34,794 nucleotides of DNA from Candidatus Aegiribacteria sp. (GCA_021108005.1 JAIORS010000221.1:1-34794); one strand, 5' to 3'; counted from the first letter of the stretch, positions 12,244-33,730 are shown. Notes: generated by a model not told the origin, from the sequence alone. Translations and numbers: made by a program.

Positions 12244-12270
12244 GCCTGTCTTTACCCATATTCATCCTTC

Positions 12271-12992
12271 GGGAGGTGAAAGTGGTATTATCGGTTAAAG
12301 TAATCAAAAGCAATTTGTTAAAAGCAAGAGAACTTGTAGAAGATTCCCTCGAATTATGCGGAGAAAGCGGCCGTGAAGTCAAAATAATGGCCGTCACAAA
12401 AACTCACCCTGTTGATGTTGCGAGTAAAGCGATAAAGGCAGGCATTACGCTGCTTGGCGAGAACCGCGTGAGTGAGGGGGGGCGCAAGATAAATGCCCTG
12501 GGTAAGGATTCAGCTGAATTCCATATGATAGGACCAATACATACAGGAGAGGTTCGTCAGGCCGCACGGGATTTTCACTGGATCGATTCCGTTGGCAGAA
12601 TGAAAATCGCCCGGGAGATCGCGCGAAGAACAGTTTTAAAAGGTCTTGAACAGCCGGGCATCCTGATCGAGGTTAATACATCAGGAGAAGAATCCAAGCA
12701 TGGTTTCAGTCCCGATTATCATCTGCTGGAAGATGTTCTGGGAGAGATCGGTGGAATCGGTTTGCGTATATCAGGGTTAATGACAGTAGGACCTCTTGGA
12801 GCAAGCGAATTGGATACATCGGAAGCCTTCGCTCTTCTTAGAATCCTGAGAGACCGTTTGAAGGACAATTGCGATTACGATTTATCCGAGCTATCCATGG
12901 GAATGAGTGATGATTTCCAGCTTGCGGTTAAAGAGGGGGCTACAACAGTTCGACTTGGAAGGTACCTGTTCGGTCCCAGAGAGACCCGTTGA
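12271..12992 (+). CDS. yggS: YggS/PLPBP pyridoxal-phosphate homeostasis protein
   Basis: The coding part is 12282-12992 (236 residues); a strong GGGAGGTG ribosome binding site at 12271-12278 points to the GTG at 12282, and the upstream in-frame ATG at 12234 has no such site. It is a single-domain alanine-racemase-N TIM barrel. The PLP lysine is K40 in A-V-T-K-T-H-P, followed by G-E-N-R-V-S-E (family G-E-N-x-x-Q-E), F-H-M-I-G-P-I-H (normally G-x-L-Q; Pro/His here), V-N-T-S-G-E-E-S-K-H-G and L-S-M-G-M-S-D-D-F, then the phosphate-binding R-L-G-R-Y-L-F-G. It buffers free PLP and influences amino-acid metabolism. It begins the long plus-strand run that continues with divIVA, a common neighbour of yggS in Gram-positives. 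Confidence 0.93.
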
Positions 12993-13100: not shown

Positions 13101-13634
13101 GTGCGTATTACACCCCTTGATATAAGAAGACAGAATTTTCGCAAAACCATGAGAGGTTACGATGCCGACGAGGTGGAAGCATTTCTCGAAATGGTTGCTT
13201 CAGCCTGGGAAGAACTGGTCGAGAACCTTGAAAATGCTGAAAAGGAACTGACCGTTCTAAGAGCCAGAGCATCGGATTTCGACCGGATGGAAGGCGCGGT
13301 AAGAGATGTGCTCGTGCAGCAGCAGCAGAGCGCGGCGCAGGCAAGGAAAGAAGCCGATAAGGAAGCTGAACTTATAATCATGGATGCCGAGGTAAAGGCA
13401 TCCAACCTTATTTCCGAAGCCCGTGAACGGGTTCAGGTGCTGACTGAAACCATACGTGAGCTGCAGGATAGAAGGTTATCGGTGCTGTCGCAGATCAGGT
13501 CTTTTGTTGACTCACAAAGGAGAATACTGGATATCGAGGAGGAAAGGATAAAATCCGAAATGATACCTGATGAGGAAAAACTTCCCGGAGAAGAGAACGG
13601 TGACTCTCCAATACTGGAACTTACGGAGTTGTAA
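13101..13634 (+). CDS. divIVA: DivIVA-domain coiled-coil protein
   Basis: A 177-residue protein. The N-terminus, T-P-L-D-I-R-R-Q-N-F-R-K-T-M-R-G-Y-D-A-D-E-V-E-A-F-L, is a textbook DivIVA membrane-curvature-sensing domain (F and R in the tip, then Y-D-x-x-E-V-D-x-F-L). Residues ~35-150 are a long coiled coil rich in E, K, A and Q (Q-Q-Q-Q near residue 73). The acidic tail (E-E-K-L-P-G-E-E) is unstructured. DivIVA proteins oligomerise at poles and septa and recruit partners. The GTG start has GGAG 7 nt upstream. The PorU-like gene begins 2 nt after this stop, so a polar-localisation protein is directly coupled to surface-export genes. Confidence 0.9.
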   Translation: MRITPLDIRRQNFRKTMRGYDADEVEAFLEMVASAWEELVENLENAEKELTVLRARASDFDRMEGAVRDVLVQQQQSAAQARKEADKEAELIIMDAEVKASNLISEARERVQVLTETIRELQDRRLSVLSQIRSFVDSQRRILDIEEERIKSEMIPDEEKLPGEENGDSPILELTEL

Positions 13635-13636
13635 TA

Positions 13637-16600
13637 ATGACTATCCTGCTGATTATCCTGCTGGGTTCAAGCTCCGTTTCGGAGTCTGTACTACGCTTTA
13701 CCGATGTGCCTGTCCAGGTGGGCAGTTCCGCGACCTCTTTTACCTGGGAATGTCCGGATATCCAGCTAATTGAGGGTTTGCCTGATGGTTTAATGGGCTA
13801 TTCAGCTGACAACTGCGGATTTTCGGGCTCTTCAGGTTCAGTGCTGCTTCCGAGGGCGAATCTCTTTCTCGCGATCCCCCCGGGGGCAGAACCTGAACTG
13901 GAGATCATTCCTGAGGGAGTCTGTTTTCTTTCCGGAGGAACTGTTTCCTCCGCAAGTGTATCTCCCGCCGGAATCGATCAGTTCCAGGCCGCGGATACCG
14001 AGGATATTCCCGTTATATGGGGTTCGATTACCTGTACCGGAACGTTCCGTAGAGCAGGTTACGTTCAGATTCAGCTGCATCCTGTGATATTCCGAAATGG
14101 TGATCTTTACACCGCTGACAGATTCAGGATACGTTTGAATTATCCTGCCTCCGGATCATCGGTTTCCGCCTCAGGAATAACCGGCTCCATATTCGATACT
14201 CTCTTCGAAGGAGGAAATCACGTCTGGAATGTTCCCGAAAAGAGAAATGACTCAAGCCCCTTCTGGGGGTTGCCGTGGTACGCTGTCGATATTGATACGG
14301 CTGGAATCTACTCCATCTCCGTAGCTGATATTCCGATGGCTGAGGGAACTCCATCATCCAGCCTGTCCCTGTTCTGCGGCAGAGGACGCGAGATGGGTGA
14401 CAAACCCTGGTTTTGTGAATACAGCCCAAGGCCTGTTCCGGTCATCGTTGAGGACGGAGGAGACGGCGTATTCGATTCAGGGGACAGGGTCATCTTTTTC
14501 GGAAGAGGGCTGGCATGGTGGGAATCCATAGACGACAAGATGCCTTCACATTACAACCACAGATACTGTACCCAGAACACCTACTGGCTCACATGGGGCG
14601 GGGAAGACGGAGCCAGGATGAATATTCAGAACGGGGAACTGACAGGTGCTCCGGCCATGCCGGACAGTTTCCTCGCAAGGCAGCATCTTGAACAGAATTT
14701 TGTCAGGACCCAGGGAGTAGTTGGATTTTCAGATGACTGGGGCTGGTTCAAATCTGAAGGCAGCTCAGATACCTGGAATTATTTGAATTTTGATGCTCCC
14801 GGGACCGAGGGCAGCGGTTTCCTGCGGATTAATCTGGCTTCAAGCGAGAACAAGACGCACCATATCAGGATATTGCTGAACTCAAATTTGGTATGCGATA
14901 CCACCTGGAACGGCAGCAGTTTATTTTTACTTACTACAAGACTTGAAGGAATTCAGGATACGGGGAACAGTCTCAGCCTTAATATTATCAGAGAATCTGG
15001 AACCGATACGGTTTTTCTCGACTGGTTTGAAGTATTCGGATGGACCGGCACATCATTGTCAGGCCAGGCTCATGTACCGCTTGAATGGTGGCCTGTGTAC
15101 GACCGACAGGAACTAACATGGGGAAACGATCTGAATGATGCCCTGGTATTTCTCGTGGGGGGAGATACTCTTGCTGAAAACATCAGCGTAGAAAACACAT
15201 ACAAATTCGAATTTGAAATACCCTCGTCATGGGAAGCGAGAGAACTATGGATCTCCGATTATGCGAATATGATATCTCCCGCGGAAGTGCGGTACGAATC
15301 ACCCGGCAGGATCGTAGGAACGATGGATGGTGCCAATAGCATTTACTTGGCTGCAGATGAATTCTACAACGATATTATTCCGCTGACGCAGGTTGCCGGA
15401 AACATTATTGCAGTGAAAGCTTCAGAGGTTTACAACGAATTCAACGGAGGTGTAAGAGACCCTCGGGCTATCCAGGCGATGGTTTCGCATATCATCGAGT
15501 CATGGGATCCAATTCCTGAGAATTTGATTCTTGTCGGTGGTGGTACATGGGATCCCCTCAATTTCGTATCCTCCAGAATATCTTACATAGATATTCTCTA
15601 CTGGAATACGTATTCACAGGTATCGGACGATATGTTTTCGATAGTCGATGGATCTGTACTTCCTCAGATAGCTGTATCCAGGATGGGGATAAACAACCGT
15701 TCGAATCTGCAGCTGATTGTAGACAGAAGTCTTTCCTATCGGAATATGGAGAACTGTGGTGAATGGCAGACCGTTGTGCTGGGCGCTGCCGATGATGAAC
15801 GTTCACCCTTAAACTCAAATGACGAAAGGTATCACACACAGAGTGTTGAAAGATTGCTGACGGAGCATCTTCCGGATATTATGCGTCCGGAGAAACTCTA
15901 TCTGATTTTTTACGACTGGAACAGCCTATGGAAAAAACCCCAGGCCCGTGAGGATTATATCGATCTCTGGAGCGAAGGGGCTCTCATCTCTTTCTTCCTT
16001 GGACATGGCGCATTTGACCAGCTGGCGGACGAAGGCCTTCTTTACCTCGAGGATTGCGGGCTCCTTGCATGTGAACAGCGGCTTCCCGTGGCCATGTTCG
16101 GTTCCTGCGACGTGGGGCAGTTTCAGAATCCCTCAACAGAATGTATTGCACAACAGGTAACAACCTCACAAACAGGTGGAGGAATACTTGGCCTTGGCGC
16201 TACAAGCAAAACATCAGGTCCCATGAACGAAGTCTTCTTTGCTCATATTCTGGATAAACTGTTCACTGAGCCCGACCTTTCAGTCGGCATGTGCTTAATG
16301 CTTGCGAAGATCAGTGTCGGCTACAGTTCAAATCAAGCTCAATACGTGCTTTTTGGTGATGGCAACCTCAAGCTCGCGTTCCCCTGGGATTCATTCGATA
16401 TTTCGAACGATACCCTGTTTTCCGGGGAAGAGGTTACTCTCAGCGGTACAGCGCCCGCAAATGGCATTGTTCTCGTTGAATCCTTCGAATCATGTCAGTC
16501 GGATACTTATTACACTTTCAGGCAGCATCTGCCCACCGAATATCTGTCAGTTCCAGGTAAATTCTATTCCGGTACAGTCTCCGCTGAACCCGGTTTCAGT

Positions 16601-17380
16601 CTGACCATGTTCGTACCTGTTGACAGTGATACAGGAGCCTTTGCCAGGACCCAGCTCACATTTTTGGACGGTGATATCGTCGCGGCTGCTTCAACCTATC
16701 CAGCCAGACTCGATCCGGGTAATCCCCTGCCGGATACCGAAGGTCCTGAGATAGAACTGTGGATTGAGGGGTACAGGAACGTAATTAACCCCGAAGTATC
16801 GAGTAATTCATATGTTAAAGCTGTTCTTTCTGATACTTCCGGAATCAATCTTCTTGGTAATGTTGGACGACAGCTTGCTCTGTATATCGATGGCACGCCA
16901 AGTGATGTTTCGGACTGTTTCCAGTACAACACAGGTTCAAGTACAACGGGTGAACTCAGGGTTGGAATCGATGTCCTTGAACCCGGGAGTCATACGATTG
17001 AACTGCGGGCATCCGATGGACTTCTGAACTCATCCACAGCAGGTATCGAGTTTTCCGTCACCGATGATAATTCATTCGGTATAAACAACGTGTTTCCCTA
17101 CCCCAATCCCTGTACGGACGGCACCTCCGTCAACTGGACACAGACATCGCCGGGAAGGGTTAATATCGCTGTTTACACGGTGGCTGGAAGACGAGTTATT
17201 ACACTCGGGAACATTGAAGGAACAGCAGGATATAACCAGTGCTGGTGGGATTGCACAGATGCCGATGGCGATGCAGTAGCCAGTGGAACATATATATTTG
17301 TTGTATCTGCAACGAAGCTTTCCGACTCTGGAGAAACCTCTGAGGTTACCGGAATAATAGCCGTTGTACGAAACCTTTAA
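13637..17380 (+). CDS. porU: PorU-like C25 peptidase (putative T9SS sortase)
   Basis: A 1247-residue protein with signal peptide (residues 2-17). The N-terminal ~580 residues are beta-rich, like the pro-/jelly-roll region of PorU. Residues ~590-910 are the gingipain-type C25 domain: candidate His790 in F-L-G-H-G-A-F, candidate Cys824 in F-G-S-C-D-V-G, ending at L-F-G-D-G-N-L-K-L (usual L-x-G-D-P). Beta-sandwich segments follow, then a FlgD-Ig/type A-like C-terminal domain (P-Y-P-N-P-C, I-A-V-Y-T-V-A-G-R-R-V, A-S-G-T-Y-I-F-V-V). PorU of Bacteroidetes removes sorting domains and attaches cargo to lipopolysaccharide at the outer surface. The length, C25 position and the PorV-like gene next door favour this role; a surface protease without sortase activity is the alternative. 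Confidence 0.8.
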   Translation: MTILLIILLGSSSVSESVLRFTDVPVQVGSSATSFTWECPDIQLIEGLPDGLMGYSADNCGFSGSSGSVLLPRANLFLAIPPGAEPELEIIPEGVCFLSGGTVSSASVSPAGIDQFQAADTEDIPVIWGSITCTGTFRRAGYVQIQLHPVIFRNGDLYTADRFRIRLNYPASGSSVSASGITGSIFDTLFEGGNHVWNVPEKRNDSSPFWGLPWYAVDIDTAGIYSISVADIPMAEGTPSSSLSLFCGRGREMGDKPWFCEYSPRPVPVIVEDGGDGVFDSGDRVIFFGRGLAWWESIDDKMPSHYNHRYCTQNTYWLTWGGEDGARMNIQNGELTGAPAMPDSFLARQHLEQNFVRTQGVVGFSDDWGWFKSEGSSDTWNYLNFDAPGTEGSGFLRINLASSENKTHHIRILLNSNLVCDTTWNGSSLFLLTTRLEGIQDTGNSLSLNIIRESGTDTVFLDWFEVFGWTGTSLSGQAHVPLEWWPVYDRQELTWGNDLNDALVFLVGGDTLAENISVENTYKFEFEIPSSWEARELWISDYANMISPAEVRYESPGRIVGTMDGANSIYLAADEFYNDIIPLTQVAGNIIAVKASEVYNEFNGGVRDPRAIQAMVSHIIESWDPIPENLILVGGGTWDPLNFVSSRISYIDILYWNTYSQVSDDMFSIVDGSVLPQIAVSRMGINNRSNLQLIVDRSLSYRNMENCGEWQTVVLGAADDERSPLNSNDERYHTQSVERLLTEHLPDIMRPEKLYLIFYDWNSLWKKPQAREDYIDLWSEGALISFFLGHGAFDQLADEGLLYLEDCGLLACEQRLPVAMFGSCDVGQFQNPSTECIAQQVTTSQTGGGILGLGATSKTSGPMNEVFFAHILDKLFTEPDLSVGMCLMLAKISVGYSSNQAQYVLFGDGNLKLAFPWDSFDISNDTLFSGEEVTLSGTAPANGIVLVESFESCQSDTYYTFRQHLPTEYLSVPGKFYSGTVSAEPGFSLTMFVPVDSDTGAFARTQLTFLDGDIVAAASTYPARLDPGNPLPDTEGPEIELWIEGYRNVINPEVSSNSYVKAVLSDTSGINLLGNVGRQLALYIDGTPSDVSDCFQYNTGSSTTGELRVGIDVLEPGSHTIELRASDGLLNSSTAGIEFSVTDDNSFGINNVFPYPNPCTDGTSVNWTQTSPGRVNIAVYTVAGRRVITLGNIEGTAGYNQCWWDCTDADGDAVASGTYIFVVSATKLSDSGETSEVTGIIAVVRNL

Positions 17381-17482
17381 CTGTTATTGTTGTTACCTGA
17401 TAACCGGCTTAACTGGAACAGCCAGCAGAAACTGATTACATGCAAAGACTGGAATGGTTTCCGGTTTTGAGCAGGAGGAATG

Positions 17483-18487
17483 ATGAACAAAAAACTTTTA
17501 TTTATTGCCCTGGTTCTTTCCATGGTCTCGATTTCGTACGGATCAACGGCCAGTGTTATCTGGATGACAATAACTCCGGGAGCACGCCCGAACGGTATGG
17601 GGGAAGCCTTTACAGCTCTGGCCGATGACGCTACCGCATCGTACTGGAACCCGGCAGGGTTGGCTTTCGTCGACACTACCAAACAGGAACTTACACTGCA
17701 GCACAGTAACTGGCTTCCGCAGCTGGCGGATGACCTGTATTACGAGTTTCTGGGTTATGCCACTCATATAGACGGGTGGGGCGGCGTCGGAGGCAACATA
17801 ACTTTCATGTCGATGGGAGAGCAGCAGGAGACAACCGCACAGGGACAGGAGCTTGGAACATTCTATTCCTACGGTGTGGCTTTGACAGGTTCCTTCGGTA
17901 CAGAAGTGGCGCCTGGCGTCTCTGTAGGGCTGGGACTCAAATTCATTTACGATCATCTTTACTATCAGGACTCAGGTAAAGGTACATCCTTCGGTGCCGA
18001 TCTCGGGGTACTGTACCATGTTCCCATGAAAGAGCTCGGGCTTGAAAGCGCCGGGCGTGTAAATGTGGGAGCCAGCCTGTCGAACCTCGGACCCAATGTT
18101 AGCTACGGGGGTAATTCCGAGAACAATCCATTACCAAGAACTCTAAGAATGGGGATTGCCTACATCCCATTTGATTCTCACCTTTCACGGCTCAGATGCG
18201 CAGCCGATTACAGCAAGCTTCTGACGAATGTTGACGAGGGAATGTCAACCGAGTTCAATGAGAACAAGTGGGGAGCGGGAGCCGAATTCTGGTACTACGA
18301 CCTTCTGGCGCTCAGGGCAGGATATATCCATGATACGGAGGGCATTTCAACCATCCAGGGTCCTACCTTTGGAGCAGGTCTTCAATACTCCGGTTTTCAG
18401 CTTGATATGGCCTTCATACCTGTAGAGGAAAATCTTCAGGGTTCAGGGAAATACAATTCCAAGTATTCCCTTTCTGTAAGATTCTAA
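17483..18487 (+). CDS. porV: PorV-like outer-membrane protein (UPF0164/PorV family)
   Basis: A 334-residue protein with signal peptide (cleavage after S-Y-G near residue 20). The mature start, T-P-G-A-R-P-N-G-M-G-E-A-F-T-A-L-A-D-D-A-T-A-S-Y-W-N-P-A-G-L, is the diagnostic N-terminus of the PorV/PorQ/FadL-like UPF0164 group. Alternating amphipathic strands run to a terminal aromatic residue (S-V-R-F), as expected of an outer-membrane barrel. In T9SS, PorV collects cargo from the SprA/Sov translocon and passes it to PorU. Two ATGs are adjacent; AGGAGG at 17473-17478 is only 1 nt from the first, so the second (17483) was chosen. It sits 102 nt after the PorU-like gene. Confidence 0.8.
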   Translation: MNKKLLFIALVLSMVSISYGSTASVIWMTITPGARPNGMGEAFTALADDATASYWNPAGLAFVDTTKQELTLQHSNWLPQLADDLYYEFLGYATHIDGWGGVGGNITFMSMGEQQETTAQGQELGTFYSYGVALTGSFGTEVAPGVSVGLGLKFIYDHLYYQDSGKGTSFGADLGVLYHVPMKELGLESAGRVNVGASLSNLGPNVSYGGNSENNPLPRTLRMGIAYIPFDSHLSRLRCAADYSKLLTNVDEGMSTEFNENKWGAGAEFWYYDLLALRAGYIHDTEGISTIQGPTFGAGLQYSGFQLDMAFIPVEENLQGSGKYNSKYSLSVRF

Positions 18488-18494
18488 GATATTA

Positions 18495-21326
18495 ATGAGA
18501 GTATTCGTGTATCTGCTGATGTTCGTTTTAGCGGGAGCTGTATCGGCTGCCGCTCCGATTGTCCACGGGGCTATGCCACCGCTGCACGAAAGGCCTTCGG
18601 AAGGGATCGCCATTGCCGGACCGGGCAAGATAGACGGTTCTGACGATACTATGAATGTCTGCATGATAAGAGCGCAGTTTCTGGAGGATTTTACCGATGA
18701 AACCTCCGGGAACGGAATAATTGACCTTGAAGCCGACCCGCCCCACAACAGGGAATATTTCCAGGGAATAGCGGATAATCTTGCATTGTACTACGAGGAT
18801 GTCAGCGGTGGACAACTTATTCTGTCCATTGATGTTTACCCTTCTTCACCTAACGGGGCGTACACCCTTCAACATCAGATGATGTACTACGGAGACGATT
18901 CAAATAGCATGCAGGGAGCATGCCTGCTCCTCAGAGATGCTGTGCTTCTTGCCGATGAAGATATCGATTTCAGTCAGTACGACGCGGTGATCATCGTGCA
19001 TGCCGGTGCCGGTCAGGAGGCTGATATACTCAGGAACAGCCCCGGTGACATCGGGTCGGTTTTTCTTACTCTGACGGATTTGATCCGTTACCTTCCCGGA
19101 GCCGGATCGGATTATCAGGGGATTCCTACTTCCGATGGAGTTCATATCAGGGAAGGTGTAATAGCTCCCGAACAGGAATCGCAGGACGGCTTTGGACTGG
19201 GTGTGCTTGGAACCATCTGTCACGAATTCGGCCATCAGCTGGGATTGCCGGACCTTTACGATACCAATACAGGTCATGTTGGAATTGGTGGCTGGGATCT
19301 GATGGGTTACGGCCAGTGGATGATGAGCGGTTACTGGCCCTCATCTCTCTCGGCATGGTCAAGAGTGTATCTTGGCTGGAATACGCCTTCAGTAACTTCC
19401 GGGGGAACCTTTACTCTGGCTTTCAACGATTCCATTTTAAAAGTTCCTCTGACCGGATCGGAGTATCTGCTGATTGAGAACAGGCAACGTGACCCTGACG
19501 GAGACCATATGTGCGGAATACACGAGCACGATTTCGGCCTTCCTGGTTCCGGGATTCTGATCTGGCATATCGATGAAACTCGCCTTGGAGAGTATCTCGC
19601 GGCGAACATGGTCAATGTGGACCCTGACCATAAGGGCGTTGATCTGGAAGAGGCAGACGGTATACAGGATTTTGATTACTCGCTTCCCGATATTTACGGT
19701 TACGAGGGTAGCGAGTTCGACCCTTGGTTCCGGAACGGTTACGCCTGGGAGTTTTCACCCACATCAGAGCCCTCAAGTGATGCCAGCTGGGGTGGAAACA
19801 CATTTGTAACGGTTGAAGTTCTTGATGAGCCAGCTCTGGAAATGGATGTAATCGTATCCAGGACGACGGTTTGTGACGGATGGCCCGTTCAATCCTCTAC
19901 AATAAAATGGGGACCGTTGATCTGGGAAAACGCTGACACTTCCGGTGACCGCATTGTGGTAACCACCACCACAGGGCATGTCAGTGCCTACATGAGCGAT
20001 GGCTCAGGTCCTGAACCGATGGGAACGGGAATAACCGCTCCCCCGGTGGCCGGGAACCCCTCGGGAGGTTCAAATCTTCTGCTTGTTTGTGAGAACGATG
20101 GTCAGGCTCATCTCAGAGATGTACAGTGGAACGAACCGGATGGTTGGCCAGTGAAGCTTTCAGGGGGCGGTTCGGGTACAGCTGCGCTGATCAGCGAAAG
20201 GCTGAATATCGTAGCAATAGCGGATGATGAGAAAAGAGTACACCTTTATAACCCGGCGGGAGCACAGCTTGCAGGATGGCCTGCCGTTACTCAGGCTCAG
20301 GTAGCAGGTATGGCAGTATATCCCGATGAAAACAATCCCGGCATAATCGCTTCAACTATTGATGGACGTGTTTATCTCTGGAACACGGACGGAGATGAAG
20401 TTGCAGGATGGCCGGTTGCTCCCGGAGATGAGAAGATAGGGATACCCCTGTCTGCGGATATTAACCGTGATGGTTCGCCCGACATTGTTGTGGTCAGCGG
20501 CGATTACACCTATGCGTACGATATACAGGGCAATATCCTGCCTGGCTTTCCCTCGATGCTTGCAGCTTCCCCACTCTCTTCACCCTGTCTGGGTGACCCG
20601 AATATGGATGGAAGACTGGAAATTCTCATACTGACGGATGAGGGTGTAGCCGCGGTGGGCGCTTCCGGTGCTACCCTTGAGAATTGGCCGGTTATGCTCG
20701 AACAGGACAGCCTGGTTTCCGGTTACAGCAGAAACAGAAGAGGTATTTCCGGCAGAGGGTTCGCGTTGATCTCAATGGACGACGGCCGGATATGTCTGTT
20801 CGATTACGAAGGCAGACAGAGCGGAATATTCCCGGTGTCTGTGGGCGAGAGACCTATAGGACGGCCACTGCTGTGGGATCCTGAAAATTCAGGTAACTGG
20901 AGAGTTCTGGCAGCTGAGAAGAACGGTTGCATTTATTGCTGGCACACCTCAATGATTCCTGAAGGATGGTTCACCGGCCTGGATATGTCCGGTTGCAACT
21001 GCTGGTGGAACGAGGATCTTCCAAATCTTCCGGCTTCCAGTTCCATACTCCACGACGGTTCTTTTTACGTTTATCCGAATCCTGTTCAACAGGGAAACGG
21101 AATCATCCGTTTCCAGCCCGGTGAAAATTGTTCGTGGGAGATAAGAATATTCAACATGGGAGGGGATCTGGTATACCTGAAAACCGGAACTGCTCCAGGC
21201 GGTTCAGCCTGGGAAGTGCCCTGGAATACCGAGGACCTCGCGCCGGGAGTCTATTTCGTCAGTCTGCACATATCCTCCGACACGGGATCAACGGATGCTC
21301 TATTTCATGCGGCGGTGATAAATTGA
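18495..21326 (+). CDS. M6-family (immune inhibitor A-like) metalloprotease with T9SS-like sorting domain
   Basis: A 943-residue protein with signal peptide (A-V-S-A near residue 18). The M6 catalytic motif is H243-E244-F-G-H247-Q-L-G-L-P-D, followed by L-Y-D and G-G-W-D-L-M-G-Y-G, the Met-turn segment usual in M6. Residues ~450-830 carry repeats ending in G-W-P or G-F-P (five or more copies), a PQQ/FG-GAP-like beta-propeller. The last ~85 residues are a type A-like sorting domain (V-Y-P-N-P-V, I-R-I-F-N-M-G-G-D-L-V, L-A-P-G-V-Y-F-V-S-L). It is likely a surface or secreted protease that degrades extracellular protein and a cargo of the PorU/PorV-type export system encoded just upstream (7-nt gap). 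The downstream start overlaps its stop (TTGA). Confidence 0.9.
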   Translation: MRVFVYLLMFVLAGAVSAAAPIVHGAMPPLHERPSEGIAIAGPGKIDGSDDTMNVCMIRAQFLEDFTDETSGNGIIDLEADPPHNREYFQGIADNLALYYEDVSGGQLILSIDVYPSSPNGAYTLQHQMMYYGDDSNSMQGACLLLRDAVLLADEDIDFSQYDAVIIVHAGAGQEADILRNSPGDIGSVFLTLTDLIRYLPGAGSDYQGIPTSDGVHIREGVIAPEQESQDGFGLGVLGTICHEFGHQLGLPDLYDTNTGHVGIGGWDLMGYGQWMMSGYWPSSLSAWSRVYLGWNTPSVTSGGTFTLAFNDSILKVPLTGSEYLLIENRQRDPDGDHMCGIHEHDFGLPGSGILIWHIDETRLGEYLAANMVNVDPDHKGVDLEEADGIQDFDYSLPDIYGYEGSEFDPWFRNGYAWEFSPTSEPSSDASWGGNTFVTVEVLDEPALEMDVIVSRTTVCDGWPVQSSTIKWGPLIWENADTSGDRIVVTTTTGHVSAYMSDGSGPEPMGTGITAPPVAGNPSGGSNLLLVCENDGQAHLRDVQWNEPDGWPVKLSGGGSGTAALISERLNIVAIADDEKRVHLYNPAGAQLAGWPAVTQAQVAGMAVYPDENNPGIIASTIDGRVYLWNTDGDEVAGWPVAPGDEKIGIPLSADINRDGSPDIVVVSGDYTYAYDIQGNILPGFPSMLAASPLSSPCLGDPNMDGRLEILILTDEGVAAVGASGATLENWPVMLEQDSLVSGYSRNRRGISGRGFALISMDDGRICLFDYEGRQSGIFPVSVGERPIGRPLLWDPENSGNWRVLAAEKNGCIYCWHTSMIPEGWFTGLDMSGCNCWWNEDLPNLPASSSILHDGSFYVYPNPVQQGNGIIRFQPGENCSWEIRIFNMGGDLVYLKTGTAPGGSAWEVPWNTEDLAPGVYFVSLHISSDTGSTDALFHAAVIN

Positions 21327-21988
21327 TTAAGATTTCAGCGGTTCTGTTCTTTTCCCTGCTGATCGTACTGTCCGGCATCGCAGATGCAGACCCCGGCTCC
21401 CGAAAGGGTGCCATGCTGAGATCCGCCGTGTTTCCCGGCTGGGGACAGATGCATATGGGTCACTCCGGCAGAGGTATAGTTTTCATGAGTCTTGATGTTC
21501 TTACCTGGGCAGGTGTTGGTCTGTCATACCTCGAGGGTACATTCGACAGAGATGATTACACCTGGCTTGCAGCTTCCGAAGCCGGCATTTCCGTTTCCGG
21601 GAAGTCAAACGAATTCCTTGATGATATATCGGATTATGCGTCAAGTACAGAATACAACGACTACATCCACAGGCTTGCAAGGTATTACTATCCCGACGAT
21701 CCGGATGCCCAGAGGGGATATTTCGAATCCCATGCCCGGTACGGAGAGGATGGCTGGAACTGGTCATCGGAAGCCGCGAGGAATCAGTTTGCCGACAGGT
21801 TGAGAGAAAGCAAGGAGTGGTTCAGAAGGAGCATGTATATTGCCGCCTTCGCCCTGGTAAACCGGGTTGTCAGCGTAATAGACGCATCTCTTCTGGACGA
21901 GACCCGGCCAGGTGTTTACACGTCACTTGCTTTTCCGGAGAGTCGCGACTTTTCATCCGTCAGGTTTTCGATTGGAGCCAGATTCTGA
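21323..21988 (+). CDS. DUF5683-like small envelope protein
   Basis: A 221-residue protein starting at TTG 21323, which overlaps the M6 stop (TTGA) and has GGTGA 4 nt upstream; the longer in-frame extension lies inside the M6 sorting domain and is not plausible. It has a signal peptide or N-terminal membrane segment, then L-R-S-A-V-F-P-G-W-G-Q-M-H-M-G-H-S-G-R-G, the hallmark of DUF5683 proteins (P-G-x-G-Q-x-Y-x-G), followed by a hydrophobic segment. A polar middle is followed by a second hydrophobic segment and V-S-V-I-D-A, also family-typical. Function unknown; the family is common in FCB envelope gene clusters. It overlaps the next gene by 1 nt. Confidence 0.7.
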   Translation: MIKISAVLFFSLLIVLSGIADADPGSRKGAMLRSAVFPGWGQMHMGHSGRGIVFMSLDVLTWAGVGLSYLEGTFDRDDYTWLAASEAGISVSGKSNEFLDDISDYASSTEYNDYIHRLARYYYPDDPDAQRGYFESHARYGEDGWNWSSEAARNQFADRLRESKEWFRRSMYIAAFALVNRVVSVIDASLLDETRPGVYTSLAFPESRDFSSVRFSIGARF

Positions 21989-23649
21989 TGATAATATTGC
22001 TGTTTTCACTGATTCTTCAGAGTTCAAGTCCCATGTGGTGGGTTGATGGAACCCCTCTTGTTCCAGGAATCATGGAAATAGATAGACGCCATGATCCCTC
22101 ATTTGAAGCTACAGGCCCCCTTAGCAGAAGTAAGGGTCACACTATCGGAGATACGATAAATTTCTGGTCCATCGATCATAGCGGTGATTCTCCCGAATTC
22201 TACCTTACCTCAGCCACCTGCAGGTACGTTGGCGAAAACACCTACATTTTCGTGGAGGATACACAATGGGATGTTCATTACGACCAGGATGCGGTAGACG
22301 CTTTTTCGGAAGCGCTTGAGGACAGTACCCCATCCGGGCCCGGAGGAATTGTCGAAACCGATATCGGTGTTTTCGGGCAGCCACCCGATGCAATAGACGG
22401 CGACCCGAAGATCTACTTCCTGGTGCTTGATATCAGAGACGGTTTCAACCATCAGCAGGGCGGAGCCTACATCGCGGGATTTTTCAGTCCGTACAACCAG
22501 TTCACCGAAACCGAGGCTTACCTTTACTACGGAGGGCATTCCAACGAAGTTGAGATGCTGTACATAGACTGTCACCCCGCCGATCAATTCGACGCGGCCT
22601 ACACTGCGTCTCACGAACTCGTTCACCTTATTCAGTGGGGAATTGCGCCCTTCAGCTCCGAGGAATTGTGGGTAATGGAAAACCAGGCCCAGTCTGGAAC
22701 TTTCGTTTGCGGATATCCGGCTTTTCAGGTTGAGACTTTCCTTGAGGTGGGGGGGATAACCCCTATCAAATGGACGAGTATTGAGGATACAATAGAGTAC
22801 GTCGCGGGTTACGGATCAGGCTACCTTTACTTCGCGTACCTGTACGAGAATTACGGTGGGGAAGATTTTCTTTACAAGTCTCTCCGATCCGGAGATCGAG
22901 GTATGGCGGGCATAAGTGAAGCCATTCGCGGCGCAACCGGTTCGAATCCCGATATGAATCAGATTCTCCTTGACTGGATGCTGGCATGCTGGATAGATAA
23001 CCCGAATTTCGGCAATGGAAAATACGGATGGGAATCCTTCCGGATAGCTGATTACGATACGGTATCTCCGGGGAACAGACCCGGCCTGGATTACACCTTC
23101 GAAATAGCAACCGATCCTTTTTCACATATGGGCGACCATATGTCCTCCTACCAGGGCACGTATTACAGTGTTGATGAATCGTTGGGAGGCAGCTTCCGAG
23201 CCGGGGCGGCAGGCCTGGGTGATATGAGGGCTTTTGTTTACAATGAAACCGGGGGATCGCTTGAAAGAATCGATGCCGGTTCAGCGAACGATGTGGCGAT
23301 ATCACTTCCCGAGGTGGGTGATATTCTACTCCTCTGCAATTCGTTTTCCGGCCTTGATCTTGATGTATCGGCAGGCTCCGTTGTATCCTCCGCGGATGTT
23401 TTTACATTCTATCCCCAGCCCTGCCGCGGCACACTCTTCTTTCAGTTCCGGTCCGGCGGTGGGAATGCTGCTCTTTCGGTGTTCACTATTTCTGGTGGAT
23501 ATGTGGAAACGGTCAGCTACAACAATGTTGACAGCGGAGAAGTGACTCTGGCTTATCCCGGAGCATCCAGCCTGGCATCGGGCACGTACTTCTTCAGATT
23601 CAATCAGGGGAGCAGGATAGAAACCGGCTCGTTCGCAGTTGTGCGCTAA
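21988..23649 (+). CDS. Secreted HEXXH metalloprotease with T9SS-like sorting domain
   Basis: A 553-residue protein; the ATG at 21988 follows the previous stop (TGATG) and begins a signal peptide (M-I-I-L-L-F-S-L-I-L-Q-S-S-S). The zinc motif is H209-E210-L-V-H213, with a probable third ligand E231 in E-E-L-W-V-M-E-N-Q-A, the spacing seen in gluzincins such as the M30/hyicolysin-like group. The C-terminal ~80 residues are a type A-like sorting domain (F-Y-P-Q-P-C, L-S-V-F-T-I-S-G-G, L-A-S-G-T-Y-F-F-R-F). It is probably an extracellular peptidase exported with the M6 enzyme. The exact peptidase family is uncertain. Confidence 0.8.
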   Translation: MIILLFSLILQSSSPMWWVDGTPLVPGIMEIDRRHDPSFEATGPLSRSKGHTIGDTINFWSIDHSGDSPEFYLTSATCRYVGENTYIFVEDTQWDVHYDQDAVDAFSEALEDSTPSGPGGIVETDIGVFGQPPDAIDGDPKIYFLVLDIRDGFNHQQGGAYIAGFFSPYNQFTETEAYLYYGGHSNEVEMLYIDCHPADQFDAAYTASHELVHLIQWGIAPFSSEELWVMENQAQSGTFVCGYPAFQVETFLEVGGITPIKWTSIEDTIEYVAGYGSGYLYFAYLYENYGGEDFLYKSLRSGDRGMAGISEAIRGATGSNPDMNQILLDWMLACWIDNPNFGNGKYGWESFRIADYDTVSPGNRPGLDYTFEIATDPFSHMGDHMSSYQGTYYSVDESLGGSFRAGAAGLGDMRAFVYNETGGSLERIDAGSANDVAISLPEVGDILLLCNSFSGLDLDVSAGSVVSSADVFTFYPQPCRGTLFFQFRSGGGNAALSVFTISGGYVETVSYNNVDSGEVTLAYPGASSLASGTYFFRFNQGSRIETGSFAVVR

Positions 23650-24397
23650 CGCGTTTCCACTCCTGCTCGCGGTTATCAGTACTCTCCCGGTATCAGAAAC
23701 AACGGTGAAGCCGTCCTGCACTGTTGAAAGGTACATTACGGTTCCCATTGGGATAATCGACGCTGAAATAAACGGAGCTGGAGACATTTATATACTTCTG
23801 CCGGGGCTCCCCCACCTGAGAATTTATTCCAATGATGGCACAATCTCCGAGTACGATCTTTCCGATGTCATCCTTCCCGGTGGCATGTGTATTGATGAAA
23901 GATGGGGATGGTTCGTTACCGGGGAGCTTACAGATATGGTATATCGATACGATAATTCGGGTGAGCTCACCGATTCATGGGATTCCAGAAGCCTTCCGGG
24001 AGATATATGTCTTTCCGGCCTCTCAGTTCTGTACGTATCACGGACAAATGGTACGATTTCCAGCCTTGATGAACCGGATGATATTCTGGTAAGATTGAGT
24101 GGTTCCTGCGAAGGACAGCTATCCGCGTCGGGTCGAAAAGCAGTCTATTCGAGCGAAAATGAATCGTTCCTTTTCGGTAATTTTACAGCCCCCGAGCCGT
24201 TGCCCGAAACAGGTATATGGACCGTTTCGGGAGAAGAACTGCTGGTTCTGCAGGATTCCTGCGTACTGAGCGGCAGCGGAAACACCCTGTTTCAGCTTTC
24301 TGAGTCCGGGGAGTTCTCCCGAATATCCTGTTCATTGAATGGTTATCACTGTCTGCTCTGGTCACCGGGGGAAGGCAGAATCCTGGTGCTTCAATGA
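23639..24397 (+). CDS. Secreted beta-propeller-like protein of unknown function
   Basis: A 252-residue protein; the most likely start is TTG 23639, overlapping the upstream stop by 11 nt, since no ATG or GTG precedes the hydrophobic leader (F-P-L-L-L-A-V-I-S-T-L). No strong ribosome binding site is visible, so the start is uncertain. Short repeats such as G-D-I-Y-I-L-L-P-G, G-G-M-C-I-D-E-R-W-G-W-F and G-D-I-C-L-S-G-L-S-V-L-Y-V-S look like NHL or six-bladed propeller strands. It probably lies in the periplasm or outer membrane as a scaffold. The stop overlaps the next start (ATGA), so it is coupled to the large envelope protein. Not recognised further. Confidence 0.6.
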   Translation: MCANAFPLLLAVISTLPVSETTVKPSCTVERYITVPIGIIDAEINGAGDIYILLPGLPHLRIYSNDGTISEYDLSDVILPGGMCIDERWGWFVTGELTDMVYRYDNSGELTDSWDSRSLPGDICLSGLSVLYVSRTNGTISSLDEPDDILVRLSGSCEGQLSASGRKAVYSSENESFLFGNFTAPEPLPETGIWTVSGEELLVLQDSCVLSGSGNTLFQLSESGEFSRISCSLNGYHCLLWSPGEGRILVLQ

Positions 24398-27300
24398 GCC
24401 TTTTCGCAGTCGCGGTACTGGTCCTCACATCTATGTCCCTGGAGTTCGAAAGTGATGGTTCAGACTTTTTTGAAACTCCCGATTCCCTCTGGATAATGCC
24501 CGGGAGTATTGTAGCTGTAGCGGACGGTGATACTCTAAACGCGGTTTCCGGAACCTCAGGGGTAAGGACGGGTGTTATTTTCAGTCCGTCTCCGCCGGAA
24601 GGCAGCAAAGTCGTGCTGGAATTTGATTTGCTTCAGCTGAGCATTCCATCCTCGGTTTCGCTTGATGTTAATTTCGCGGAAAGACAGACGATCGAGCAAT
24701 TGTCCGGATATACATCTGATCCATTCCAGCAGCACGGTCTGTACATATCAGGTTCAAAAAGAATAGGGTTTTCTGTCGGTGACGGAGGAGGACTTGACCA
24801 GGGAACAAGAATCTCGGTTGAAGGCACGGCGGCTCCCGGGATCACTGTTTCGGGAAGTGTAACTGATCGCAACCTGACCGCAGGGCCCACTTCCTCGGAG
24901 CTTGTCTCGCAGCTTGACAGGATATTTTTCCTTGTGGACGGAGGATCGTGGAGGGCCAGGCTGGGCGATATGGAATGGGTCAGCGGTAACGCTGAAACCG
25001 GCCCCCTCTCATGGAGAAGAGAGGTGAGCGGAGTTGACGCGTGGGGGGAGATCTCACAATCCGTTACCACCGGAGCGGGATATGGAACATCGGGGGATTC
25101 CAGGCAGAGAACCGTTTTCTATACAGATGAGGGAATTCAGGGGCCTTACGAAGTGACATCCGGCTGGGAAGTCGTTCCAGGCAGCGAGAAGGTCTGGCTG
25201 GATGGACAGCTCATGCATCGTGGTTCTACCGAGGATTACCGGATGGAATACTCGGCCGGTCTTATAACTTTCACATCTACGCGGCTGATAAGGAATGATC
25301 AGCGGGTGGAGATTACCTTTTTCCAGCGCGGTGACGGTTTCAGGAAGGATTTCGTTACAGCTTTTTCGCAGTACTCAAAGAACGGCCTGGAGGTTGAATT
25401 CAGGGGGTTCTACAGCGAAGATGACAGAGAATCTCCACTGGGATTCGTGCTCACCGAGGAGGCTGTGGATATTCTCCGCGAAGCTGGAGAGGATCCGGCG
25501 GACGCATGGATTGACGGGGCTTCGAATGTAGGGCAGGGAAACGGCTGCTATACTCTGGATTCACTGGGGCATTACGTTTTCATGGGGCCGAACCGGGGCG
25601 ACTGGAACGTTGTGTTTGGAAGACCTCCTTCGGAGTTTGGGGATTACATTTTCGACAGCTCACTTGGCGGTTACCTCTGGACCGGAGAGGGCAGTGGAAC
25701 ACACCTGCCCCGACAGTACATTCAGATACCATCGGGGTACAGCACCGGCGGCATTTCAGCCGGGTATGCATCCGCGGGTATTGATCTGGGGTTGGAGGCA
25801 GCTTTTTCCGGAAGAACCGGAAACCTTTACAATCCGGATGGCACATCAAGGGAAGGCACCTGCTTCATCGGTTCGATGAACATGGAATTCTGGGAGGACG
25901 GTCCCGGGCTCGGAATCGGTGGAAGGCTGGTTTCCTCCGGATACGAAGCTCCCGGAGAACTCGAAGCTGACAGTTCGCTTTCAGCATGGTCCCTTCCCGC
26001 CGATTATGAAGGCAGAGACAACATCGCGAATGTGAGCCTCGGAGGGAATCAACTCCTTGCGGCTGTTTCGGGCAGATTCCTGGAAGCCGGTGGTATTCTT
26101 GAGAGGTATCGAATTAATTCGAAACCTGTTCTTTGGAATATCGGTGTGGACGCCGGAGGAACATTCCTTAAGAGGACAGGTACCCATCAGATGGCCATGG
26201 GTCAGACCTCATCCATATCGGTGTCGGTCATACCGGTAACAGGTTTACTCAAACCCTTTGCGGGATGCAGCTTCTCCGAAGAATCATGGCAGGACAGTCT
26301 TGAAGGAGATGTCAATACGGAATTTGCAGGTATCTCTTTCAACAGGAACACCACAGATATACTTCTTCGGATGGAGCTTCAGGATGATTCAAGATCCGGG
26401 GGGGCTTCGGGCGGACCATTCAAGGTGTGGAGGGCCCGTCTGGAGGGATCCGGCCCAACCGGGGAATTGAGGTACAATGGGAGTTTTGAGCATTCATCAA
26501 CTTCTTACGACTCCGGCGGAGAGCTTCATGCGGATGCCATCAGATTATCCCTGACGGGAACCACGGGGGATGTATGGATGGAAGCGGTCTACAATGGTTC
26601 AGGAACCATAAGCAGATCTCTGGATGTGATGTACGTTTACGTTGGTGAGGGAAAGGGAAACTACAGCTATGATAACGATAGCGGCCAGTACTATGCAGAT
26701 CCTGATGGTGATTACAATATCAGCTTTCAGCCGGGAACCGCTGGTGATGCTGTAACTTCCGGGTCACTTGAGATGACACTCTCCTGCTCCGGAACACTGT
26801 CCGGTGTTAATTCAGTAGTAAGACTCTCGGCAAGCAATTCCCTTGACAGAAAGAAGTCCCTGCTTCTATACGGCGCGTTTGACCGAAGCGAGGAGGGAGG
26901 ATACAGCCTGAGTATATCACCCTGGTTTCGCTGGGAAGAGACTCTTATCAGCAGACTGACTCTTACCGGGAGGCTGAGGAACGAAAGGATTTCCTACAGT
27001 GGAACCGGATTGAAGAATGAAAGAATGTGGTCCCTAAGAGCGGCACCGGAGTTGAGCCCCGCGGATATCCTTGTAATTGAATGCTCGGCGAAGATCTGGC
27101 GCGAGGAGGAGGAACTCTACTACCCCCGGGATACAAGGGGGCTGAGACTGGAAATTGATCCGACCCTGGAACCATCTCCCGGTCTGAAACCCGGTATCCT
27201 GGCGGCTTACGAATACAGAAGAGAAGTTGTTTCAGACCTTGATAAATATATGCTTGAAGCAGGTCCGCACTTCTCGTGGACAGGAAGTGGCTGGACTTCG

Positions 27301-27516
27301 ATGGCCAGAGTATCCGCGGGATACATCCCCGGGGATGATGAGCTTCCAGTCTGGTTCTTCGACGGCAATGACAGCGGCATCTCATGGAGGACAACAGCCA
27401 GGATAGGCAGGTGTCTTTCATCCGGGCTTGATATCAGTCTTTTCTACTGGGGAAGAAAACCCGCTGGAAGCAGCTGGAATCAAAGGGCGGGTCTTGAGGG
27501 AACGGTGAACTTCTAA
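24394..27516 (+). CDS. Large beta-rich outer-envelope protein, possibly SprA/Sov-related
   Basis: A 1040-residue protein with short signal peptide (residues 1-16). No catalytic motif is visible. Residues ~265-315 contain V-P-G-S-E-K-V-W-L-D-G then G-L-I-T-F-T and R-V-E-I-T-F-F-Q, a pattern also seen in repeats of the SprA N-terminal family (a name-value stem, then 'DY..dY..G.i.ft', then 'i.v.f'). From ~450 onward amphipathic, aromatic- and glycine-rich strands dominate to the final V-N-F, as in an outer-membrane barrel. SprA/Sov forms the T9SS translocon but is about 2400 residues; this would be under half that. The neighbouring PorU, PorV and Omp85 genes support an export role. A generic TonB-less porin or assembly factor is the alternative. 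Overlaps both neighbours. Confidence 0.55.
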   Translation: MSLFAVAVLVLTSMSLEFESDGSDFFETPDSLWIMPGSIVAVADGDTLNAVSGTSGVRTGVIFSPSPPEGSKVVLEFDLLQLSIPSSVSLDVNFAERQTIEQLSGYTSDPFQQHGLYISGSKRIGFSVGDGGGLDQGTRISVEGTAAPGITVSGSVTDRNLTAGPTSSELVSQLDRIFFLVDGGSWRARLGDMEWVSGNAETGPLSWRREVSGVDAWGEISQSVTTGAGYGTSGDSRQRTVFYTDEGIQGPYEVTSGWEVVPGSEKVWLDGQLMHRGSTEDYRMEYSAGLITFTSTRLIRNDQRVEITFFQRGDGFRKDFVTAFSQYSKNGLEVEFRGFYSEDDRESPLGFVLTEEAVDILREAGEDPADAWIDGASNVGQGNGCYTLDSLGHYVFMGPNRGDWNVVFGRPPSEFGDYIFDSSLGGYLWTGEGSGTHLPRQYIQIPSGYSTGGISAGYASAGIDLGLEAAFSGRTGNLYNPDGTSREGTCFIGSMNMEFWEDGPGLGIGGRLVSSGYEAPGELEADSSLSAWSLPADYEGRDNIANVSLGGNQLLAAVSGRFLEAGGILERYRINSKPVLWNIGVDAGGTFLKRTGTHQMAMGQTSSISVSVIPVTGLLKPFAGCSFSEESWQDSLEGDVNTEFAGISFNRNTTDILLRMELQDDSRSGGASGGPFKVWRARLEGSGPTGELRYNGSFEHSSTSYDSGGELHADAIRLSLTGTTGDVWMEAVYNGSGTISRSLDVMYVYVGEGKGNYSYDNDSGQYYADPDGDYNISFQPGTAGDAVTSGSLEMTLSCSGTLSGVNSVVRLSASNSLDRKKSLLLYGAFDRSEEGGYSLSISPWFRWEETLISRLTLTGRLRNERISYSGTGLKNERMWSLRAAPELSPADILVIECSAKIWREEEELYYPRDTRGLRLEIDPTLEPSPGLKPGILAAYEYRREVVSDLDKYMLEAGPHFSWTGSGWTSMARVSAGYIPGDDELPVWFFDGNDSGISWRTTARIGRCLSSGLDISLFYWGRKPAGSSWNQRAGLEGTVNF

Positions 27517-28874
27517 TGGTTATCATGATTGTTTCCATCGCAGTCGCGGTGTTATCAACTGAAGGTTCTCTTACGGTTGACATCGGGGGCAGCCCTCCCG
27601 TTCCAGTTTTGTATGAGCTGGGAATTGATTCGGTTCTTGCTTCCGATTCGTCCATAACAGTGTTGCAGGAAAGCATTCTGCAATGGTACCTGGAAGAAGG
27701 TTACCCATTTGCCGGTGCGGGATACTATTTCGTGACGGAGGATTCTCTCAGGGTCAATACCGTTCCCGGAAGACATGCATTACTGGAAGAAATCCGCATT
27801 GAGGGAGTACCTGGAACCCGGACAGAGGTTTTCACAAGGCTTCTGGGAATAGAACCCGGTGATGCATACGACCGTGAAGCTGTTGAAACATGGATTGAGA
27901 GAATCGAGCGGCTGAAGTTCATCAAAGCCATTGGTATTACCGAACTTTTCCTTGGAGAGGGTGGCAATATCGTTCTCCTGCAGCATGTTCAGAAGGGGAA
28001 ATCAGGTCATTTCGCCGCGTCGATGGATTGGCAGGGCGAGAACCTTGAGGGCGCGGGAGAAGTACTGTTCCTGAATCTGGCGGGTACCGCGAGGGAGCTT
28101 GAGATATCAGGCCAGACAACCGAGTGGGGCGGGTTTAACGCATTTCTGAGGTATAGAGAACCGTGGCTGTTCAACATTCCTCTTGCAGCCGAACTGGAAA
28201 TATCCCAGGAAACCCCGGAAAGCTCATGGGTTAACCGGGAGGGAAGCATTTCCATGATCTGGAGCATGAACCGGACCGAGATAATTGGAGGCGCAGGCAT
28301 CTGGAGAGGTTATCCACCGGACGGGGAGCGCCAGAGTTACGATTATGGCCTTGCCGGAATTACGTGGTACACGGGTTACAGGATTCCTCAGGGTTGGAAT
28401 GGATTGGAAATGCAGCTGGAGGCAAGATCCGGTAATAGATCCGGACAGGATTCTTCTGGAATTCTAACGATGGCGGAATTGCGAATTGATGGTACCGTAT
28501 ACATGGATTTCATGGGTTTCGGGGGTAGACTACTGACAGGTGGAGTTATGCAGGGAGACTGGTTCGAAGGGCTTCTTGATAAACTTGGTGGACAGGAGAC
28601 CCTGAGAGGTTATCCTGAAAACGCTTTCAAAGCCGTAAGATATGTCGCAGCGAGGCCTGAGATATCAATCGGTGAAACTGAAACAAGAATTTATCTGTTC
28701 TGCGACCTTGCAGCAATTCGAACTCCGAGTCAGGGAATGAGATACCCTATTGGCTGTGGGGCTGGAATAAGGGGAATCAGTGGCATTTTCCATGCTGATG
28801 CAGCGGCAGGATTCCCGGTCATGGAAGGCCTCGGCAGTTCCAGACTCTATCTCCGTCTTACCGCTTCGATATAA
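27516..28874 (+). CDS. Small Omp85-family outer-membrane assembly protein (POTRA plus barrel)
   Basis: A 452-residue protein whose ATG overlaps the preceding stop (TAATG). After a signal peptide, residues ~84-145 look like one POTRA domain (I-R-I-E-G-V-P-G-T, L-L-G-I-E-P-G-D-A-Y-D, R-L-K-F-I-K). The remainder is a predicted barrel containing L363-R-G-Y-P-E-N, the conserved (V/L)-R-G-(F/Y) loop motif of Omp85 proteins, ending in L-R-L-T-A-S-I. BamA, TamA and FhaC relatives have two to five POTRAs and more residues, so this is a reduced form; the region before the visible POTRA (residues 30-80) may hold a diverged second one. It probably inserts or secretes the products of this operon, most simply the large protein encoded directly upstream. 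Confidence 0.75.
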   Translation: MVIMIVSIAVAVLSTEGSLTVDIGGSPPVPVLYELGIDSVLASDSSITVLQESILQWYLEEGYPFAGAGYYFVTEDSLRVNTVPGRHALLEEIRIEGVPGTRTEVFTRLLGIEPGDAYDREAVETWIERIERLKFIKAIGITELFLGEGGNIVLLQHVQKGKSGHFAASMDWQGENLEGAGEVLFLNLAGTARELEISGQTTEWGGFNAFLRYREPWLFNIPLAAELEISQETPESSWVNREGSISMIWSMNRTEIIGGAGIWRGYPPDGERQSYDYGLAGITWYTGYRIPQGWNGLEMQLEARSGNRSGQDSSGILTMAELRIDGTVYMDFMGFGGRLLTGGVMQGDWFEGLLDKLGGQETLRGYPENAFKAVRYVAARPEISIGETETRIYLFCDLAAIRTPSQGMRYPIGCGAGIRGISGIFHADAAAGFPVMEGLGSSRLYLRLTASI

Positions 28875-32608: not shown

Positions 32609-33730
32609 TTAAAAAAGATCCCTCCCCTCAGCGATATTAAGTAGTTCTGAGAATGCGTAAATACCCGCTCGTCGACCACCTCCCGGTCGTATTGTTGTAA
32701 GGGTACAATTATCTCTAAGCAATTTCAGTATCCTTCTTGCGGTTGGAGAAGGTATTTCTGGATCCTTAATGAAATCCGGTGATCGGAAAATTGGTCTCTG
32801 GAAAATGAAGTCCAGGGCATTAATGCTATACTGTGAATGAATAACCTTAGAGAATTCAGCTTTGCTCTTTTCATATAAACCAAGGATAGCATCAGCTTTC
32901 CTTTGATTCTCCTCAGCCTGCTGGATTATTGCTTCAAGGAAATAGCTTACCCACTGAGTCCAATCTCCATCGCGTGATACAGTAAGAAGTCGCTCATAAT
33001 ACTCATCGCGATTTCGTTCAAAAAAGGCGCTAATGTAAAACATGGGGACAGATAGTAGTTCCGTCTTAGCCATGAACAACGGTACAAGCATTCGTCCAAG
33101 TCTACCATTACCATCAAGAAATGGATGTATAGCCTCGAATTCGGCATGGAGAACAGCCAATTGGACAAGGCGATCCAGCGAATCGGCATGTATATATTTC
33201 TCCCATGCACTCATTGCATCCGGAAGTATACCAGCTGAAACAGGTATGAACTTTGCTTCCTCAATCGTGCATCCAGGTGGACCAATCCAGTTAGATCCCT
33301 TTCGATATTTTCCAGGTGATTTCTTATGACCACGAACCCCGGTCATCAGTACTTTATGTGTTTCCCGAATAACCCGTTGGCAGAGGGGTAGTTTCTCAAG
33401 CATGATCTCAGCGTGATACATAGCCTGTCTATAGTTAAGGATCTCTTCTATATCATCACGTTTCTCAACCGGGATCGACTTCACATCTCCTTCCGCTTCA
33501 AACTCCAGCACTTCACTCATTGTAGCCTGAGTTCCTTCAATTTTCGAAGACAGCACTGCTTCCTGTGTCATCAGTGGTGATAGCAACACAGCAACATTAG
33601 GTATCGCATGCAATGTTCCATCATATCTAGCCAATGCCGCGTTTGCCGGACCAATCAAAGGAATCAAACTTTCCCAATCCAAATCATCAGGAGGAAAACC
33701 TCCGATATGATACTTAACGGGTTCAGACAT
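32609..33730 (-). CDS. Fic-family AMPylase-like protein with inhibitory motif
   Basis: A 373-residue protein with the layout Fic_N, Fic core, C-terminal winged-helix-like domain. The catalytic loop is H202-P-F-L-D-G-N-G-R-L-G-R (H202, R210, R213). The inhibitory helix motif (S/T)-x-x-x-E-(G/N) is present N-terminally as S61-S-K-I-E65-G66, so it is a class II Fic held inactive until relieved. The C-terminal S-P-T-A-R-R-I-L-K-L-L is a helix-turn-helix-like region seen in this subgroup. Fic enzymes transfer AMP (or other nucleotides) to target Thr/Tyr; target unknown. An AGGAGGTG ribosome binding site lies 4 nt before the ATG. Such genes move often between bacteria, consistent with the accessory surroundings. 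Confidence 0.93.
   Translation of the reverse strand: MSEPVKYHIGGFPPDDLDWESLIPLIGPANAALARYDGTLHAIPNVAVLLSPLMTQEAVLSSKIEGTQATMSEVLEFEAEGDVKSIPVEKRDDIEEILNYRQAMYHAEIMLEKLPLCQRVIRETHKVLMTGVRGHKKSPGKYRKGSNWIGPPGCTIEEAKFIPVSAGILPDAMSAWEKYIHADSLDRLVQLAVLHAEFEAIHPFLDGNGRLGRMLVPLFMAKTELLSVPMFYISAFFERNRDEYYERLLTVSRDGDWTQWVSYFLEAIIQQAEENQRKADAILGLYEKSKAEFSKVIHSQYSINALDFIFQRPIFRSPDFIKDPEIPSPTARRILKLLRDNCTLTTIRPGGGRRAGIYAFSELLNIAEGRDLF

Follow-up and report, generated by a model that had tools for sequence, protein, structure and literature searches.

A probable SprA-related companion barrel of the type IX secretion system encoded in Candidatus Aegiribacteria sp.

The open reading frame (ORF) at positions 24394-27516 on the + strand of a 34,794-nucleotide stretch of DNA from Candidatus Aegiribacteria sp. 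(GCA_021108005.1 JAIORS010000221.1:1-34794; the whole stretch analysed, a contig of a Fermentibacterota genome, is referred to as the window) encodes a 1040-residue protein, designated P0001, which probably represents an unnamed family of SprA-related companion outer-membrane barrels of the type IX secretion system (T9SS). That this family is linked to the T9SS and is distinct from SprA itself is held with high confidence. The ORF is a genuine gene, as full-length homologs were found at 88-38% identity in almost every Fermentibacterota genome and at 17-22% identity in other phyla; its start ATG overlaps the stop codon of the upstream gene (gene Y), and its product ends in Phe. Full-length relatives of approximately 1000-1200 residues are present in Fermentibacterota, WOR-3/Stahlbacteria, Zixibacteria, Krumholzibacteriota, Calditrichota, Cloacimonadota, Ignavibacteria and Bacteroidota, and the family spans the Fibrobacterota-Chlorobiota-Bacteroidota (FCB) superphylum. 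The homolog in Candidatus Sabulitectum silens (locus L121) is spread across several reading frames, the gene being broken or the assembly containing errors. The parts of P0001 are as follows.

24394-27516, + strand: P0001, predicted outer-membrane barrel protein, 1040 residues (ORF; family alignment of 61 members; AlphaFold2 model with a predicted local distance difference test score, pLDDT, of 81.8)
24430-24684, + strand: N-terminal, diverged PGS copy, residues 13-97 (hhalign against the second PGS copy and SprA 505-640)
24721-25128, + strand: strand-rich region, residues 110-245, aligned with the N-terminal region of SprA (hhalign)
25129-25329, + strand: second PGS domain, residues 246-312 (TIGR04189 match; hhalign; invariant residues)
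25336-27513, + strand: predicted C-terminal barrel, residues 315-1040, last residue Phe (DSSP on the AlphaFold2 model; hydropathy; C-terminal Phe)

Judged from sequence profiles, the N-terminal third of P0001 is homologous to the N-terminal part of SprA. The second PGS domain carries the motif QGPY..VPGSExVxLDG..DY..DY..GxITFT. Residues 260-294 of P0001, which belong to one of the best-conserved stretches of the family (V-P-G-S-E-K-V-W-L-D-G ... G-L-I-T-F-T), had been likened by eye to SprA N-terminal repeats in the original prediction. The SprA model TIGR04189, which has a cut-off of 200 bits, matches P0001 at 16.2 bits over residues 256-309 (model positions 600-651, E 1.1e-3); the PGS motif region is the only part of the protein that matches a family model, the match covering approximately 50 residues rather than the full length, and 26 of 27 relatives match at the same place, with a best E of 8.6e-8. 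When the alignment of 61 family members was compared with an alignment of 12 SprA proteins by hhalign, for which the E-values are those of single comparisons, SprA 505-640 aligned with the second PGS domain (P0001 residues 240-345) at E 1.6e-15 and with the N-terminal copy (residues 1-112) at E 2.5e-11. The two copies, of which the first is diverged, aligned with each other at E 6e-10, so the repeat pattern claimed earlier corresponds to a PGS domain present twice. The strand-rich region (residues 108-245) aligned with SprA 110-405 at E 1.1e-5 and with whole SprA at 6.5e-5, corresponding to approximately residues 132-283 of the SprA encoded in the same genome.

Controls did not reproduce these matches. 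Reversed SprA gave E 0.24-0.44 against the P0001 queries, and of the 20 block shuffles made for each query the best scored 3e-4 with the PGS query (3.9e-12 for the real sequence in the same run), 0.13 with the N-terminal copy and 0.07 with the middle region. Ushers, taken as unrelated large barrels (five from E. coli K-12), gave E 0.06 or worse. The arrangement of an N-terminal strand region followed by a PGS domain, as in SprA, is present in P0001, and since the profile-profile matches hold where the controls fail, the likeness first noticed by eye reflects a real profile-level similarity. A search of the P0001 N-terminal module against the whole 3.2-Mb genome recovered only P0001 and SprA (E 0.0024). 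The proposed check against Pfam SprA_N (PF14349) gave no match in 27 family members; however, the SprA of the same genome matches PF14349 at residues 957-1293, i.e. in the middle of SprA and not at its N-terminus, and the absence therefore says little about the N-terminus of P0001.

P0001 is not an abbreviated SprA translocon. The minimal SprA/Sov protein initially envisaged, replacing a full SprA, was ruled out because a full-length SprA is encoded elsewhere in the same genome, as a protein of 1864 residues on a contig other than that of P0001 (G000:C38:2824-8415; TIGR04189 406 bits), whose best match in the PDB is Flavobacterium johnsoniae SprA (6h3i). Three T2SSE/PilB/PilT-type ATPase genes follow this sprA gene (G000:C38, 8579-13255). 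The possibility that P0001 is itself the T9SS secretion pore, as a shortened SprA/Sov, is already largely refuted and is regarded as very improbable: the N-terminal modules common to both proteins, the very large predicted barrel and a 98% complete relative (G005) that retains the whole P0001 operon without detectable SprA are in its favour, but a full SprA coexists with it in this genome and in nearly all the others, TIGR04189 scores it at 16 bits where the cut-off is 200, SprA_N is not matched, and hhalign shows no similarity to SprA in P0001 residues 330-1040 (E 0.3-0.38, as in the reversed control) and none to P0001 in the SprA core at residues 640-1864 (E 0.3).

The AlphaFold2 model, generated from the 61-member alignment with strands assigned by DSSP, predicts that P0001 is a large outer-membrane beta-barrel (mean pLDDT 81.8, predicted template modelling score 0.65). 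Two small beta domains at residues ~13-79 and 246-312 are separated by eight strands; the second is followed by two strands, a loop domain at residues 350-445 and then 29 strands to the C-terminus, among which lies a second loop insertion at residues 743-780. The model has 39 long predicted strands overall, approximately 31 of them in the putative barrel after the second PGS domain; the SprA barrel has 36. Most of the barrel strands alternate in hydropathy, and 58 of 61 family members end in Phe, a residue typical at the C-terminus of substrates of the beta-barrel assembly machinery (BAM); together with the modelled strands, this agrees with the barrel-like C-terminal half described in the original prediction. 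The best Foldseek matches of the whole model are large outer-membrane barrels, with query-length template modelling (TM) scores no higher than 0.23. The loop insertions at residues 372-442 and 743-780 have in common a GxGxY...GDY-like pattern with invariant Gly and Tyr.

Across genomes, the family is near-strictly dependent on SprA. Among 198 Bacteroidota genomes, 121 contained both the family and SprA, 33 SprA only, 44 neither and none the family alone, i.e. the family is present in 121 of 154 SprA-positive genomes (~79%) and in 0 of 44 SprA-negative genomes (Fisher 2.6e-23, a value overstated because the genomes are related and not phylogenetically independent). The family is single-copy. 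Outside this set, SprA scored over its cut-off in 26 of 27 family-positive genomes, and the three clear non-Fermentibacterota positives among the genomes of 60 relatives (G044, G048 and G050) all encode SprA. Within SprA-positive Bacteroidota the family is further associated with the sortase PorU, which was found in 118 of 121 genomes with the family and 20 of 33 without it (p 8e-8, likewise overstated by kinship); the association with an M6-like family (72 of 121 against 5 of 33) is weaker. An alternative explanation is mere co-ancestry, in which P0001 would be a general outer-membrane protein handed down together with the T9SS with no functional tie to it. The relatedness of the genomes and the unlinked position of the homolog in most of the Bacteroidota sampled would be consistent with this, but it appears highly unlikely given the absence of the family from all 44 SprA-negative Bacteroidota, the operon with PorU- and PorV-like genes in the window, the nearby PorV fusion at a locus of Zixibacteria, and an N-terminal module common to P0001 and SprA alone in the genome.

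In the window, P0001 lies in a same-strand series with the following genes.

13637-17380, + strand: PorU-like C25 sortase (NF033707 343 bits, below the 420-bit cut-off; Peptidase_C25 5e-49)
17480-18487, + strand: PorV/PorQ-family protein (NF033709 238 bits, above cut-off)
18495-21326, + strand: M6-type protein with a type A T9SS tail (NF052323 342 bits; TIGR04183 above cut-off)
21323-21988, + strand: gene V, DUF5683-like (profile family; weak PF18935 match)
21988-23649, + strand: gene X, secreted, with a T9SS tail and an HExxH-like stretch (Por_Secre_tail 7.9e-4; sequence)
23639-24397, + strand: gene Y, predicted NHL beta-propeller, directly upstream of P0001 (profile family)
27516-28874, + strand: gene Z, short Omp85/BamA-like protein with POTRA and barrel, directly downstream (POTRA 7.9e-6; BamA TIGR03303 3.4e-12)

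Successive genes from V through X, Y and P0001 to Z overlap or directly adjoin one another, an arrangement like that of a translationally coupled operon, with the PorU-like gene 7-11 kb and the PorV/PorQ-family gene 6-7 kb upstream of P0001, so the PorU/PorV-like neighbours reported earlier are present, the C25 protein scoring short of the PorU cut-off. Gene Y lies upstream of the family gene in 29 of 30 Fermentibacterota and 16 of 16 Zixibacteria loci, its Zixibacteria member matching NHL at 1.7e-28, and gene Z lies downstream in 27 of 28 and 12 of 12 loci, respectively. Gene V is also upstream in Zixibacteria, often in two copies, and gene X was found only in Fermentibacterota. One Zixibacteria locus examined contains a PorV-containing fusion and a T9SS-tailed protein further upstream, and in rumen Bacteroidales (L109 and L168) the P0001 homolog directly precedes porP, porK, a 300-residue gene in the porL position, and porM. 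A DivIVA-domain gene (13101-13634) and an alanine-racemase-fold gene (12234-12992) lie just before the PorU-like gene in the window, and a Fic-domain gene (32609-33730) lies near the window end.

Two further explanations draw on this neighbourhood. The first is that P0001 is a surface-anchoring or assembly partner (PorP/PorQ/PorZ-like) that holds or displays T9SS proteins without transporting them. Such a role, considered unlikely, would accord with the PorU association within SprA-positive genomes, with neighbours bearing T9SS tails and an NHL propeller, and with the precedent of PorP-like T9SS barrels that anchor cargo (PMC9143113); however, it is the translocon SprA, rather than PorV, PorP or PorQ, that has modules in common with P0001, and the predicted barrel is far larger than an anchor needs. 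The second is that the short Omp85 protein and P0001 form an outer-membrane biogenesis module that helps to build SprA or other giant barrels, which would account for the co-occurrence with SprA. The strict pairing with Omp85 in Fermentibacterota and Zixibacteria and the perfect nesting of the family within SprA genomes in Bacteroidota (none with the family alone) favour this explanation, as does the unusually elaborate BAM of Bacteroidota (PMC12611786), but it is judged distinctly unlikely, as the Omp85 gene is not adjacent to the homolog in Bacteroidota and WOR-3 and the family tracks PorU beyond SprA.

Several observations weigh against the interpretation of P0001 as an SprA-related companion barrel of the T9SS. 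The match of the middle region to SprA (E 1e-5) is moderate, and the structural comparison proposed earlier did not place SprA (6h3i) among the best 50 Foldseek matches for either the whole model or a 350-residue fragment model (residues 1-350). In most other Bacteroidota sampled, the homolog stands alone or beside housekeeping genes and not T9SS genes, and 20 PorU-positive Bacteroidota genomes lack the family; together these indicate that not every T9SS requires it. Two genomes, the 98% complete G005 and G063, carry the gene with no SprA detected, which is either a gap or a real exception, and kinship among the genomes inflates the Fisher values.

Under the companion-barrel interpretation, P0001 would have, ahead of a barrel of its own, the strand region and PGS domain of the SprA N-terminal part together with an additional PGS copy. 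Lodged within the pore or beneath it, the PGS domains may act as plug or docking modules. The short Omp85 protein encoded by gene Z could be a dedicated insertase for the P0001 barrel, for both P0001 and SprA, or for SprA. In the SprA translocon, cargo passes into the pore, engages PorV loops and exits via a lateral opening (PMC10994853). With its SprA-like front end, and next to PorV and PorU, the P0001 barrel could follow SprA or work alongside it in handling type A (PorV/PorU-dependent) cargo, for example by taking cargo over at the sortase-attachment step or by serving as a second exit site; this cargo-handling role is put forward tentatively.

In Bacteroidota and related phyla, the T9SS exports enzymes, adhesins and virulence proteins, and not all of its components have yet been catalogued. 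The P0001 family directly suggests itself as one of those still missing; it also offers a clean target for deletion and a PorU-branch marker. Apart from the SprA motif and weak matches of a phage-tail type, Pfam, NCBIfam and the PDB gave no match to the family, no name for it was found in Pfam or NCBIfam, and no paper describing it was found in the open-access literature (subscription journals lay outside the search). That it is a widespread T9SS part across the FCB superphylum which has so far been overlooked is a somewhat doubtful proposition; if so, it may have been missed because some standard model organisms might lack the family. PorM/GldM (TIGR03517) was matched only in Bacteroidales genome G073 and not in 18 genomes (G000, G001, G005, G020, G021, G039, G044, G048, G050, G060, G061, G064, G065, G067, G068, G070, G074 and G080), nearly all of which encode SprA (G005 being without it). 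The T9SS of these genomes may be powered differently, or its motor may be very diverged, and the presence of the family with SprA, PorV-like and PorU-like proteins in phyla with no recognisable PorM motor raises the question of the ancestral T9SS.

Among known systems, matches to phage tail and VP17 proteins (DUF2460, TIGR02217, 3zmn) were discarded as short Y-x-x-G-x-I-x-F matches near chance, and a T9SS cargo identity (C-terminal domain protein) was rejected, with no match to Por_Secre_tail, TIGR04183 or CHU_C and with P0001 ending in a barrel strand with Phe. TonB-dependent receptors (TbpA, BtuB) resemble P0001 in local strand matches in Foldseek, but P0001 has no plug or TonB_dep_Rec Pfam match, the TM-scores are 0.14-0.20, and this identity was set aside. 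Fimbrial ushers (FimD/PapC) are likewise large barrels interrupted by an inserted domain, and FimD has the highest query-normalised TM-score (0.23) among the Foldseek matches listed for P0001; however, the usher identity (PF00577) suggested by these features was ruled out by profile comparison (E 0.06 or worse), and P0001 has no usher Pfam match. The PorV/PorQ/PorP-type barrels are T9SS outer-membrane barrels, and a PorV/PorQ-family gene is part of the P0001 cluster, but these proteins are far smaller and match PorV or PorP models, whereas P0001 matches none. SprA/Sov (TIGR04189; PDB 6h3i) differs from P0001 in length (1864 residues in the same genome to ~2400, against 1040), in lacking the extra N-terminal PGS copy, in having no similarity to it past the second PGS domain, in carrying PF14349 and in coexisting with it, but resembles it in its N-terminal strand region, PGS domain, giant barrel (predicted in P0001) and T9SS context.

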